Source: Kaistia algarum (GTDB lineage Bacteria > Pseudomonadota > Alphaproteobacteria > Rhizobiales > Kaistiaceae). From it: a stretch of DNA of 64,000 nucleotides. The stretch spans positions 1,860,001 through 1,924,000 of the forward strand of contig NZ_JAPKNJ010000001.1 in the NCBI RefSeq assembly GCF_026343945.1, in the 5' to 3' direction. The notes beneath the pieces were generated by a model. It searched no databases and was not told the origin of the DNA. It saw nothing but the letters and a program-made list of their open reading frames with translations. Positions 17,404-22,384 of the stretch are shown here, piece by piece; the first letter of the stretch is position 1; every line of letters starts with the position of its first letter. A program made the translations under genes and the position numbers.

Positions 17404-17422
17404 TTTACGAATGATTAACCAT
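17404..17422 (+). promoter_or_regulatory. CtrA-like site upstream of divL
   Basis: TTTA, seven bases, then TTAACCAT. This matches seven of eight positions of the alphaproteobacterial CtrA motif TTAA-N7-TTAA. It lies about 180 bp before the start of divL, whose product regulates CtrA activation, so a feedback site would make sense. Single near-matches also occur by chance in AT-rich promoters. Confidence 0.4.
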
Positions 17423-17603: not shown

Positions 17604-20087
17604 ATGCTTTGGCATCGCAGGAAATCGACGAGGATTCGGACGGCGCTCGGCTCTCCGATGCTCGCTTCCTCGCTCCTTTTCATACCCGGATCGACCGCCT
17701 CGGCCGCCGACGCGCTCTCGTCCACAGCTCTCTCCGGGCCGTCCGGCGTCGTGGCACTGTCCGCCAGCCTCGGCGTCGTCCTGTTCTCGATCCTAAGCGT
17801 CGTCGTGGTGCTGCGAGCCCGCCGTAGAGCCGAGCGCGACAACGCGGCGCTCCGCCTTCGCCTCGCTGACCTTCGCTCTGCGGCCGACCGGGCCGAGGCT
17901 CTCGTCGATGTCGACGATCAGCGCCTCGTCGCCTGGAGTGGCGCCGGCGAGGCGCCTTTGGTCATGGGACGCCTGCCGGAGATTTGCGGTGCGCCGGTCG
18001 ACCGGTCGAATTTCCTGGCCTTCGGCACCTGGCTGCCGCCGGCCTCGGCCTCGCGCCTCGACGCCGCGATCGAGCGGTTGCGCGGACGCGGCGAGACATT
18101 CACGCTGGCGCTCGACACGCGAAGCGGGACGGTCGTCGAAGTGACGGGGCGCACATCCGCCGGCCGCGCCGTCGCCCGCTTCCGCGACCTGACCGGCGAC
18201 CGTCTGACGCTCGCCGAGCTGGAATCGCGCCATCGCCGCCTTTCCCTCGAGGTCGGCGCCATGCGAGCGCTGTTCGAGGCGGCAGACATGCCAGCCTGGA
18301 TCCGCAATCGCGATGGCCGGCTCGAATGGGTGAACGCCGCCTTTGCCCGCGCGGTCGAGGCGCCCGATCCCGAGGACGCCGCCGAGCGAGGCGCCGAGCT
18401 GCTCGACACAGCCGGACGCCAGGCGATCATCCGCGCCCATGCCGCCGGGCCCTTCTTCTCGGGCCGATTGCCGATCGTTGTCGCCGGCGCCAGGCGGGCC
18501 TTCGATGTCGTCGATGTCGTGTCCGAGGCCGGCAGTGCCGGCATCGCCGTCGACGTCACGGAACTTGAGACGCTGCAGAGCACGATGCGGCGCCTCGTCG
18601 AATTCCATGCGCGCACGCTCGATCAGTTGGCGACCGCGGTGGCGATCTTCGGCGCCGACCGGCGGCTGCGGTCCTACAATGCCGCCTTCCGCTCGCTGTT
18701 CGGCCTCGACGACGCCTTCCTGGCCGCCATGCCGGATGAAAGCGCGGTGCTGGACGCGATGCGTGCCGGCCGCCGACTGCCCGAGCAGGCCGATTTCAAG
18801 AGTTGGCGCAAGGAATTGCTCGCAGCCTATCAATCGGTCGACACCCGTGAACATTGGTGGCATCTGCCGGACGGACAGACGCTGCGCGTGCTCTCCAATC
18901 CGCATCCGCAAGGCGGCATGACGTGGATCTACGAGAACGTCACGGAACGACTCGACCTTGAAAGCCGCTACAATGCGCTGATCCAGGTCCAGGGCGAGAC
19001 GCTCGACCATCTCTCGGAAGGCGTCGTCGTCTTCGGATCCGACGGAAGGCTGCGCCTCAACAATCCCGCCTTCGCCGAGATCTGGCAGCTCGGCGCCGAT
19101 TTCCTGGCCGATCGGCCGCATGTCGGCGAGATCGTGCGTGCCTGCCGACGCTTCCACGACCAGCCGGCGGATTGGGCCAATCTGACCGCCGACGTGATCG
19201 GGGTCGGCGACCGGCGCGCCGCCCGCAGTGGGCGCATGGAGCGTCGCGACGGGCATATGCTCGACTATGCCACCATCCCGCTGCCGAACGGCCAGACCAT
19301 GGTCACCTTCGTCGATGTCAGCGATTCGGTGCGCGTCGCCCGGGCGCTGACCGAGAAGAACGAGGCGCTGGAGGCGGCGGACGGGCTCAAGAACGCCTTC
19401 ATCCAGCATGTGTCCTATGAGCTGCGCTCGCCGCTCACCAACATCATCGGCTTCACGCAGCTACTTTCCGACGACGGCGTCGGCCCGCTCAACGACAAGC
19501 AGCGCGAATATACCGGCTACATCCTCTCCTCAAGCGGCGCGCTGCTCGCCATCGTCAACGACATTCTCGACCTCGCCACCGTCGATGCCGGGATCATCGC
19601 GCTCGAACTTGGCGATGTCGACGTCGCGGCGACGATCTCTGCGGCGACGGAAGGCGTGCGCGATAGGCTGGTCGAATCGCGCATCCGCCTGGAGACGAGC
19701 ATCGCGCCAGATATCGGCTCGTTCGTCGGCGACGAGAAGCGCGTCCGCCAGATCCTCTACAATCTCCTGTCCAATGCCGTCGGCTTCTCGCCGACCGACA
19801 GCCGCGTCGTGCTCACGGCCAAGCGCAATGGCGCGGCCGTCGAATTCACCGTCGCCGACGAAGGCCCTGGCATCTCGCCGGAGTTCATCCGTCAGGTATT
19901 CGACCGCTTCGAGAGCCGGACATCGGGCGCAGCCCGGGGCGGTGCGGGGCTGGGCCTTGCCATCGTCAAGAGCTTCGTCGAGCTGCATGGCGGCACCGTC
20001 GCGATCGATTCGGAGGAAGGCCGCGGCACGACCGTCACCGTCCGCTTGCCGACCCGCCCGGCGACGATGGCTGAAGCCGCGGAATGA
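17604..20087 (+). CDS. divL: DivL-type PAS sensor kinase with Tyr in place of the phospho-acceptor His
   Basis: 827 residues: an N-terminal hydrophobic segment and a TM helix (about 47-71), a long region with several PAS-type repeats (about 120-570), then a histidine-kinase-like module. The H-box reads HVSYELRSPLTN, so Tyr605 occupies the position of the phosphorylated His. The ATPase lobe looks intact (LYNLLSNAVGF, VADEGPGIS, GAGLGLAIVKSF). Tyr-for-His substitution is the hallmark of DivL, which in alphaproteobacteria binds CckA and DivK-P to set CtrA phosphorylation. Its position between pckA and tsaE fits Rhizobiales gene order. It overlaps tsaE-amgK by 4 bp. Confidence 0.87.
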   Translation: MLWHRRKSTRIRTALGSPMLASSLLFIPGSTASAADALSSTALSGPSGVVALSASLGVVLFSILSVVVVLRARRRAERDNAALRLRLADLRSAADRAEALVDVDDQRLVAWSGAGEAPLVMGRLPEICGAPVDRSNFLAFGTWLPPASASRLDAAIERLRGRGETFTLALDTRSGTVVEVTGRTSAGRAVARFRDLTGDRLTLAELESRHRRLSLEVGAMRALFEAADMPAWIRNRDGRLEWVNAAFARAVEAPDPEDAAERGAELLDTAGRQAIIRAHAAGPFFSGRLPIVVAGARRAFDVVDVVSEAGSAGIAVDVTELETLQSTMRRLVEFHARTLDQLATAVAIFGADRRLRSYNAAFRSLFGLDDAFLAAMPDESAVLDAMRAGRRLPEQADFKSWRKELLAAYQSVDTREHWWHLPDGQTLRVLSNPHPQGGMTWIYENVTERLDLESRYNALIQVQGETLDHLSEGVVVFGSDGRLRLNNPAFAEIWQLGADFLADRPHVGEIVRACRRFHDQPADWANLTADVIGVGDRRAARSGRMERRDGHMLDYATIPLPNGQTMVTFVDVSDSVRVARALTEKNEALEAADGLKNAFIQHVSYELRSPLTNIIGFTQLLSDDGVGPLNDKQREYTGYILSSSGALLAIVNDILDLATVDAGIIALELGDVDVAATISAATEGVRDRLVESRIRLETSIAPDIGSFVGDEKRVRQILYNLLSNAVGFSPTDSRVVLTAKRNGAAVEFTVADEGPGISPEFIRQVFDRFESRTSGAARGGAGLGLAIVKSFVELHGGTVAIDSEEGRGTTVTVRLPTRPATMAEAAE

Positions 20088-21613
20088 GCGGCGCGATCCT
20101 TCGCCTGGCACTGGCCGATGAGGCTGCCACACGCCGCCTCGGCGAGGACATCGCGGCGATCCTGAAGCCCGGCGATCTGGTCCTGCTCTCGGGCGATCTG
20201 GGTGCTGGAAAATCGACCCTGGCGCGATCGTTGATCCGCGCGGTTGCCGACGACGAAACGCTCGACGTGCCCAGCCCGACCTTCACGCTGGTGCAATCCT
20301 ATCCGCTGCGCCTGACGCTTTCCCATTTTGATCTCTACCGCATCGCCGACGCCGGCGAGATCGACGAACTCGGCCTCGACGAGGCGCTCGGCCTTGGCGC
20401 GGCGCTGGTCGAATGGCCCGAGCGCGGCGGTTCGATGCTGCCGGCCGGCGCGCTCCGCATCCGTCTCGAAGACGAGGGCGAGGGCCGCGTTGCGACGATC
20501 GATACACCAGGCGACTGGCCGGAGCGGATTGCCCGTACGCTCTCCGTCCGCTGCTTCCTCGATCGCTCGGGCTGGCCGGGCGCCGCACGGCGCCATCTGC
20601 AGGGCGATGCCTCGACGCGGGCCTATGAGCGTATCTCTCGCCCCGAGACCTTCGGCGCGGGCGAGAGCGCGGTGCTCATGAATGCGCCGGCCCGTGCGCC
20701 CGGACCGCCGCTTCCGGGCGGCGGCACCTATGACGAGGTCGCCCACCGCGCCATCGATGTCCGTCCCTTCATCGCCATGGATGAGGCGATCCGCGCCGCC
20801 GGCTTCTCCGCCCCCGCGATCTTCGCCGCCGATATGGGCGATGGACTGCTGCTCCTGGAAGATCTCGGCAGCGAGAGCCTCCTGAAGGCCGGCGAACCCG
20901 ATTTCGAGCGCTATGCGCTGGCGGTCGAGGTACTCGCGGAGATCCATGCCGTACCTCGGGCAAGGCATTGGAAGCTGCCGGACGGGACGGATTATCGTCT
21001 CCCGCGCTTCGACGTCGCCGCCTTCGCCATCGAGGCCGATTTGGCGATTCGCTGGTATGCGCCACTGCTCGGGGTCACGCTTTCCAACGAGGCCGAGGCT
21101 GCGTTCGCATCGATCTGGCAACAGCTTTTCCAGCGTCTCGACAGGACCGAGAAGAGCTGGCTGCTGCGCGACTATCATTCGCCGAACCTCCTCTTCCTGC
21201 CGCATCGCCATGGCACGGCGCGGATCGGCATCCTCGACCATCAGGACGCGATGATCGGCGCCAGCGCCTATGACGTCGCCTCGCTCGGCCAGGATGTCCG
21301 CGTCGCCGTAGCGCCGGGCTTCGAAAGTGCGCTGAAGGCCCGCTATGTCGCACGTCGCCATGCGCTCGGCGCCTTCGACGAGGTCGCCTTTGCCGAGGCC
21401 TATGCGATTTCAGGGGCGCAGCGCACGACCAAGGTTCTGGGCGGGTTCGCTCGCCTCGCCGCCTCCGGAAAGCCCCAATATCTCCGTCACATTCCCCGTG
21501 TATGGGATTACCTTCGGCGCAATTTCCAACATCCGGTTCTGTCGGACCTCGCGCTCTGGTATGAGTCCTATTTACCGTATGATGACAAATCGGCTCCATC
21601 CGGGAGCCCTTGA
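20084..21613 (+). CDS. TsaE / AmgK fusion: tRNA t6A ATPase joined to a sugar kinase
   Basis: A 509-residue two-domain protein. Residues 1-150 are TsaE (P-loop GDLGAGKSTLA at 37-47, then SPTFTLVQ), the ATPase of the threonylcarbamoyl-adenosine tRNA modification complex. Residues about 165-500 are an aminoglycoside-phosphotransferase-fold kinase with the catalytic loop LLRDYHSPNLLF and metal site GILDHQD, like AmgK (anomeric N-acetylmuramate/N-acetylglucosamine kinase). The next gene, murU, is AmgK's partner, which supports that reading. The start overlaps the divL stop by 4 bp. The fusion is known in Rhizobiales. Confidence 0.92.
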   Translation: MSGAILRLALADEAATRRLGEDIAAILKPGDLVLLSGDLGAGKSTLARSLIRAVADDETLDVPSPTFTLVQSYPLRLTLSHFDLYRIADAGEIDELGLDEALGLGAALVEWPERGGSMLPAGALRIRLEDEGEGRVATIDTPGDWPERIARTLSVRCFLDRSGWPGAARRHLQGDASTRAYERISRPETFGAGESAVLMNAPARAPGPPLPGGGTYDEVAHRAIDVRPFIAMDEAIRAAGFSAPAIFAADMGDGLLLLEDLGSESLLKAGEPDFERYALAVEVLAEIHAVPRARHWKLPDGTDYRLPRFDVAAFAIEADLAIRWYAPLLGVTLSNEAEAAFASIWQQLFQRLDRTEKSWLLRDYHSPNLLFLPHRHGTARIGILDHQDAMIGASAYDVASLGQDVRVAVAPGFESALKARYVARRHALGAFDEVAFAEAYAISGAQRTTKVLGGFARLAASGKPQYLRHIPRVWDYLRRNFQHPVLSDLALWYESYLPYDDKSAPSGSP

Positions 21614-21637: not shown

Positions 21638-22384
21638 ATGAGTGCGCCTATCCCTTTTCGCAAGCCCGCTGGTCCGAAGCGGGGCATGGTCCTCGCCGCC
21701 GGCATCGGCAAGCGCATGCGCCCCGTGACGGCGACCGTGCCGAAGCCCCTGGTCGAAGTTGCCGGCCGGCCGCTGCTGGATCACGCGCTCGACCGCCTCG
21801 CCCGCGCCGGCGTCGAGACTGCCGTGGTCAATGTCCATTATCTCGCCCATCTCGTCGAAGCGCATCTGAGGCGGCGCGAACGTCCCCATGTCGTGATCTC
21901 GGATGAGCGGGGCGAATTGCTGGAGACCGGCGGCGGCATCAACAAGGCCCTGCCTCTGCTTGGCGACCAACCCTTCTATGTGATGAATTCCGACAGCTTC
22001 TGGATCGAGGGGCCGCGTCCCAATCTCGATTGGCTGGCCGGGGCCTGGGACGATGCGCGCATGGATGCGCTGTTGATGCTGGCACCGACCGTCGCATCCA
22101 TCGGCTATCCGGGCGCCGGCGATTTCGTGATGGAAAAGGACGGCAGCCTCGCACGCCGCGCCGAGCGGACCATTGCGCCCTTCGTCTATTCCGGCGCCGC
22201 GATCCTCTCGCCGCGCCTGTTCGACGGTGCGCCTTCCGGTGCCTTTTCGCTGAACCTGCTGTTCGACCGGGCGATCGAGGCCGGACGCCTCTTCGGCGTG
22301 CGCATGGACGGTATCTGGCTGCATGTCGGTACGCCGGAGGCGATCCGCGACGCGGAGGCCTCGGTCCGGGAAAGCGCAGCCTGA
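21638..22384 (+). CDS. murU: Sugar-phosphate nucleotidyltransferase, MurU type
   Basis: 248 residues with the nucleotidyltransferase signature MVLAAGIGKRMRP near residue 17 and the PKPLVEVAGRPL segment. With the preceding AmgK domain it would make UDP-MurNAc from recycled N-acetylmuramate, bypassing de novo (fosfomycin-sensitive) synthesis. The gap to tsaE-amgK is 24 bp and to addB 5 bp. The generic alternative is a mannose-1-phosphate guanylyltransferase; context favours MurU. Confidence 0.87.
   Translation: MSAPIPFRKPAGPKRGMVLAAGIGKRMRPVTATVPKPLVEVAGRPLLDHALDRLARAGVETAVVNVHYLAHLVEAHLRRRERPHVVISDERGELLETGGGINKALPLLGDQPFYVMNSDSFWIEGPRPNLDWLAGAWDDARMDALLMLAPTVASIGYPGAGDFVMEKDGSLARRAERTIAPFVYSGAAILSPRLFDGAPSGAFSLNLLFDRAIEAGRLFGVRMDGIWLHVGTPEAIRDAEASVRESAA

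Follow-up and report, generated by a model that had tools for sequence, protein, structure and literature searches.

The open reading frame that we name divL, on the forward strand of the 64 kb window (the whole stretch of DNA analysed, 64,000 nucleotides from Kaistia algarum), almost certainly encodes the DivL pseudokinase of a Kaistia-type Rhizobiales bacterium, which would serve as a docking sensor acting on CckA. DivL is known as an inactive relative of sensor kinases with a part in the alphaproteobacterial cell cycle. The protein has a Tyr at the phospho-acceptor position and an intact ATP-binding lobe, its kin are DivL proteins, and the pathway partners are present in the same genome. 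It is an ordinary DivL of a Kaistia-type genome, Tyr in place of His being the normal state for DivL. By analogy with Caulobacter DivL, it would bind phosphorylated DivK (DivK~P), lack kinase activity and control CckA.

A tyrosine at the phospho-acceptor position

Reading of the codons gave CAT, GTG, TCC, TAT and GAG, that is H602-V-S-Y605-E, inside the motif QHVSYELRSPL (Table 1). The catalogued copy of the protein (P0001) has 809 residues and Tyr605 would become Tyr587 in it, the residue number depending on the choice of start codon. The H-box was aligned with that of Caulobacter DivL (PDB entry 4q20) and with those of seven other kinases of the Kaistia genome, which read SHELRTP (six) or SHEIRTP (one). 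Tyr605 fell in the acceptor column in both comparisons, where an active HisKA sensor kinase has a His, and the closest His was His602, three residues upstream; a register shift putting a His at the acceptor site was ruled out by the alignment to 4q20. These data bear out the initial annotation, which had read a Tyr for His at this site and an ATP lobe retaining its N, G1 and G2 boxes; the F box is present too. Pfam and an AlphaFold model placed an N-terminal helix, whose membrane insertion is a prediction, and several PAS domains ahead of the kinase part. In the model (mean pLDDT 79.5, pTM 0.37) a long N-terminal helix leads into four PAS-like units, followed by DHp and CA; most domains are good, the DHp is weaker and their mutual arrangement is unsure.

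Table 1. Features at and around divL, in positions of the window.
Feature	Position	Strand	Basis and remarks
CtrA-type box TTTACGAATGATTAAC	17404..17419	+	One mismatch to TTAA-N7-TTAAC; between pckA and divL
divL ORF	17604..20087	+	827 aa; possibly 809 aa, with the true start at 17658
Predicted long helix, residues 46-101, putatively an N-terminal membrane helix with coiled coil	17739..17906	+	Model; hydrophobic stretch; putative role
PAS-like domain 1, residues 106-195	17919..18188	+	Our reading of the model only
PAS-like domain 2, residues 231-317	18294..18554	+	Model; Pfam PAS_8 at 221-254
PAS domain 3, residues 339-451	18618..18956	+	Pfam PAS_7, model
PAS-like domain 4, residues 473-571	19020..19316	+	Model; PAS_7 has two stretches, only the best with coordinates
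HisKA/DHp domain, residues 596-663	19389..19592	+	Pfam
His602, three residues before Tyr605	CAT 19407..19409	+	Codon reading, loci counts; common in the same order
Tyr605 at the phospho-acceptor position	TAT 19416..19418	+	Codon reading and alignments
HATPase_c/CA domain, residues 709-818, with N, G1, F and G2 boxes	19728..20057	+	Pfam, alignment
TsaE-AmgK-like fusion ORF	20084..21613	+	ATG overlaps the divL stop by 4 nt

Conservation of the Tyr was assessed in 246 loci: one from this genome, 37 from a named collection (L011-L047), 159 from a class search in which 205 of 387 genomes matched, and 49 more from an order search in which 146 of 150 matched. Almost all matched the Kaistia DivL at E 1e-60 or better, so that the sample is biased and misses far-off DivLs. 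Loci L002-L010, L048-L050 and L259 onward were excluded because they were either not DivL or from the own genome, and removal of two duplicates (L210 and L211) gave 244 distinct DivL-like proteins, the own copy (L001) included. The acceptor residue was Tyr in 214, His in 11, Phe in 4, a gap in 4, and R, T, G, V, S, K, L or Q in the other 11. All of the 120 listed nearest proteins, P0001 among them, also had the Tyr, which, together with the 214 of 244, argues that Tyr605 is no sequencing accident. The substitution is described in PMC4211667 as a mark of DivL, conserved throughout its homologs with the exception of an Ala in Magnetospirillum magneticum. The initial annotation had likewise called it the hallmark of DivL, and as the usual state this stands; as an absolute hallmark it is ruled out by the His and Phe variants.

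Some of the departures deserve separate mention. Three of the four Phe proteins, L062, L243 and L136, belong to family f2 of the same order, and the first two keep an intact ATP lobe and His602. The gap in L079 is due to truncation of the frame used by an in-frame stop, and is therefore no evidence of a lost domain. Three DivL-like proteins (L162, L165 and L166, in genomes G063, G309 and G162) end before the DHp domain; G063 and G309 have no DivK match at 1e-20, and G162 has one at 71%, which runs against the published rule that a short DivL goes with the loss of DivK.

The proximity of His602 raises the alternative of an active kinase whose phosphorylated His has shifted there, one helical turn before Tyr605. 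This His was present in all 37 named-collection loci, in 39 of the 50 same-order loci and in 31 of the 154 same-class loci, and it stays in the Phe variants L062 and L243. However, the acceptor in the aligned register is residue 605, and the 602 column holds Asn in Caulobacter DivL and in 96 of the 154 same-class loci. We know of no shifted acceptor within a HisKA domain and consider such a shift very improbable.

A second alternative is that Tyr605 is itself phosphorylated, and early DivL work reportedly proposed such Tyr autokinase activity. PDB entry 4q20 has tyrosine kinase in its title, and the ATP lobe, judged by a four-residue test, is intact in 190 of the 214 Tyr-bearing proteins. Against this, Caulobacter DivL is described as showing no autophosphorylation and its Y550F variant as still binding DivK~P specifically (PMC4211667), and in two f2 genomes (those of L062 and L243) an intact lobe goes with Phe. 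We therefore regard Tyr autophosphorylation as highly unlikely, and retain the pseudokinase reading.

Kinship with DivL and pathway partners

The best sequence match among PDB chains was Caulobacter DivL 4q20 (E 7e-44; second best 7e-30), and when the 4q20 segment was searched against the Kaistia genome the divL ORF came first (E 1.2e-44; runner-up 2.4e-34). The two are thus reciprocal best matches, with PDB chains searched in one direction and the Kaistia genome, not a whole Caulobacter genome, figuring in the other. In a tree of the DHp-CA part, built from hand-picked rows without the H-box columns, the seven genome kinases stood apart from 70 DivL-like rows, 4q20 among them (SH-aLRT 89). 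With the PAS columns added, and with 14 of 77 rows left out for long branches or odd composition, the split between DivL and the kinases had an SH-aLRT of 98. The Kaistia DivL fell together with Kaistia and Bauldia, within a set of rows from the same order and from Rhizobiales. These were quick trees with long outgroup branches, in which the sole proven DivL is the 235-residue 4q20 segment and PleC is not separately identified.

A Foldseek search put 4q20 in 8th and 17th place by E-value, after long proteins with many domains; its identity to the predicted DHp-CA (38%) was the highest among the 50 rows listed, with a TM(target) of 0.72-0.76. Since ZraS (9jfj_C) reached a TM(target) of 0.82, above 4q20, the fold alone does not single out DivL.

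The genome holds cckA, chpT, divK and ctrA. ChpT was found by PF10090 over its cut-off (C4:4749-5111), and probing with Caulobacter sequences gave DivK (C4:1578-1937, 77%) and CtrA (C4:3840-4445, 86%). The ORF after divK was read by us as PleD-like. CckA is L275 (C3 near 607709), with best PDB matches to 5idj and 5idm, the latter named CckA; another locus, L270, looked CckA-like but differs at the N-terminus and was rejected. Of four further kinases (L002-L005), the best NCBIfam model was DivJ in two, PdhS in one and TorS (PdhS second) in one, none reaching its cut-off. DivJ and PleC are described as DivK partners in Caulobacter (PMC2877005). Like kinases of the DivJ/PleC/PdhS kind, the Kaistia DivL is an alphaproteobacterial HisKA-HATPase protein; unlike it, L002-L005 keep the H-box His and fall outside the DivL side of the trees.

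The order of its domains is that of sensor kinases, and the protein could be pictured as a DivJ/PleC-type kinase in decay after a recent loss of its His. Yet the Tyr is kept in every one of the 120 listed nearest proteins, and both the reciprocal best match and the side of the tree are those of DivL; we give this picture next to no credence. The DivL identity proposed in the initial annotation is therefore supported by the PDB match, the reverse search, the trees, the partners and the conservation of the Tyr, and neither of the two observations named there as contrary to it, a conserved His at the site or a phylogeny outside DivL, was seen.

With Caulobacter crescentus DivL the Kaistia protein shares the H-box Tyr, the N, G1, F and G2 boxes of the ATP lobe, an N-terminal helix that precedes several PAS domains, and DivK-binding residues that are largely kept. 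Changes of R553, T557, Y562, H579 and A601 in Caulobacter DivL are described as disturbing DivK or DivK~P binding (PMC4211667). In a hand reading of the 4q20 alignment, R553, T557 and A601 correspond to R608, T612 and A658, and Y562 and H579 to F617 and Y636. R608 and Y636 were invariant in a 53-sequence alignment; the T612 column held Thr in 111 and Asn in 115 of the 244 DivL-like proteins, so that T612 is no family marker. The Kaistia protein differs in its Rhizobiales context, in sequence (41% identity over the kinase part), in having four PAS-like units as read from the model, and in the CtrA-type box that lies ahead of divL in Kaistia-type genomes, the upstream comparison covering the Kaistia side. 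A Rhizobiales DivL working with CckA has been described in Sinorhizobium meliloti, known to us from description, not sequence, and inferred to be essential from temperature-sensitive alleles (PMC11500502).

The concern that generic names hide DivL proved justified. The closest named relatives are mostly Kaistia. Names given to relatives in the sources are 'signal transduction histidine kinase', 'PAS-domain containing protein', 'ATP-binding protein' and, in one case, 'alkaline phosphatase', the last being the public label of the DivL ortholog P0011 of Kaistia sp. 32K. The best 25 of 82 NCBIfam models included no DivL model, and all of these 25 fell short of their cut-offs.

Gene order gave partial support for the DivL identity: of 216 Tyr loci, 120 have tsaE directly downstream of divL and 20 have it at another place in the locus; in 69 it was not found, and in 7 the stretch was too short. 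In Kaistia, a single ORF joins TsaE to an AmgK-like kinase, and a MurU-like gene comes next, at 21638.

A CtrA-type box ahead of divL and a proposed circuit

TTAA-N7-TTAAC is described as the CtrA motif of Hyphomonas neptunium (PMC7200025). The box between pckA and divL is one of three one-mismatch sites of this motif in the 64 kb window, in which exact TTAA-N7-TTAA was not found. Each of the 9 distinct Kaistia-type relatives for which upstream sequence exists (L011-L017, L019 and L040, two of them labelled Mesorhizobium and Bosea; L018 lacks upstream sequence) has the exact form near the divL frame start, as the sole exact TTAA-N7-TTAA in its locus of about 12.5 kb. The exact form was not found in the four other loci of the family (L020, L021, L212 and L213). 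Of the 234 loci that extend 300 nt or more upstream, 18, two duplicates among them, had an exact box at -300 to +100 relative to the frame start, the frame being counted from the preceding stop codon; beyond this region there were 21 exact boxes in 1.59 Mb, or 0.005 per 400 nt. A promoter and terminator scan gave two weak promoter matches, both inside divL, and no terminator.

As the box is exact in 9 of 9 relatives and has one mismatch in the Kaistia window, CtrA probably controls divL directly in Kaistia. CtrA control of divL is described for Rhodobacterales that lack DivK (PMC2877005). Neither divL nor TTAA was found in the text of PMC4433202, and the phrase 'divL promoter' was not found among the matches listed in a paper search.

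We propose the following mechanism. The Tyr at the acceptor position would remove DivL autophosphorylation, and the DHp-CA unit would therefore act as a docking sensor for DivK~P. Without bound DivK~P, DivL would promote the kinase activity of CckA and hence CtrA phosphorylation through ChpT; with DivK~P bound, it would let CckA act as a phosphatase. Judging from the conserved box, CtrA may in turn bind ahead of divL and feed back on its own activator.

DivL proteins with a natural histidine

By the four-residue test, six of the 11 His-bearing DivLs have an intact ATP lobe, five of one genus and L081. In these five, the Sneathiella-type L117 and L170-L173, tsaE adjoins divL and the DivK of the genome is 78-83% identical to Kaistia DivK; the L081 genome has a DivK at 79%, and tsaE was not found within its locus stretch. 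L117 is a 100% match to a Sneathiella chungangensis protein. The 58 proteins listed as nearest to L117, its own copy included (P0121-P0178), all have the His, as does P0179 (Oceanibacterium hippocampi), and P0180-P0240 have Tyr with the exception of P0199. A further His-bearing DivL-like protein, L242 (G473, a 1.3 Mb genome of the same order), has no recognisable ATP lobe, and its genome has a DivK-like match at 49%.

In trees, the Sneathiella-type His DivL stands beside Tyr-bearing neighbours (a 15-row set at SH-aLRT 99, in a tree of hand-picked rows). An AU test did not reject a grouping of all other DivLs as one clade, which would make the His ancestral (p 0.717 and p 0.401); in the former case, with the PAS columns included, the tree constrained to this grouping scored 9.6 log units higher. 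The root is unsure because of the long outgroup branches.

With a His, an intact lobe and a DivK in the genome, the Sneathiella orthologs are candidates for naturally occurring DivLs with genuine kinase activity. We can tentatively imagine, while doubting it, that the DivL Tyr is a reversible switch, the DivL of the Sneathiella type and of L081 being a DivK~P-stimulated kinase, as the laboratory mutant Y550H of Caulobacter appears to be, and Kaistia keeping a CtrA-controlled pseudokinase. In a literature search, most subscription journals lying outside its scope, no paper was found that treats DivL together with Sneathiella or together with Kaistia.

The identification gives a name to a protein left generic or misnamed in the sources, and places a cell-cycle switch in Kaistia. 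The conserved box would make a feedback from CtrA to its own activator, described for DivK-lacking Rhodobacterales (PMC2877005), testable in DivK-bearing Rhizobiales, and the natural His DivLs would allow the reason for the loss of the His in DivL to be tested directly.
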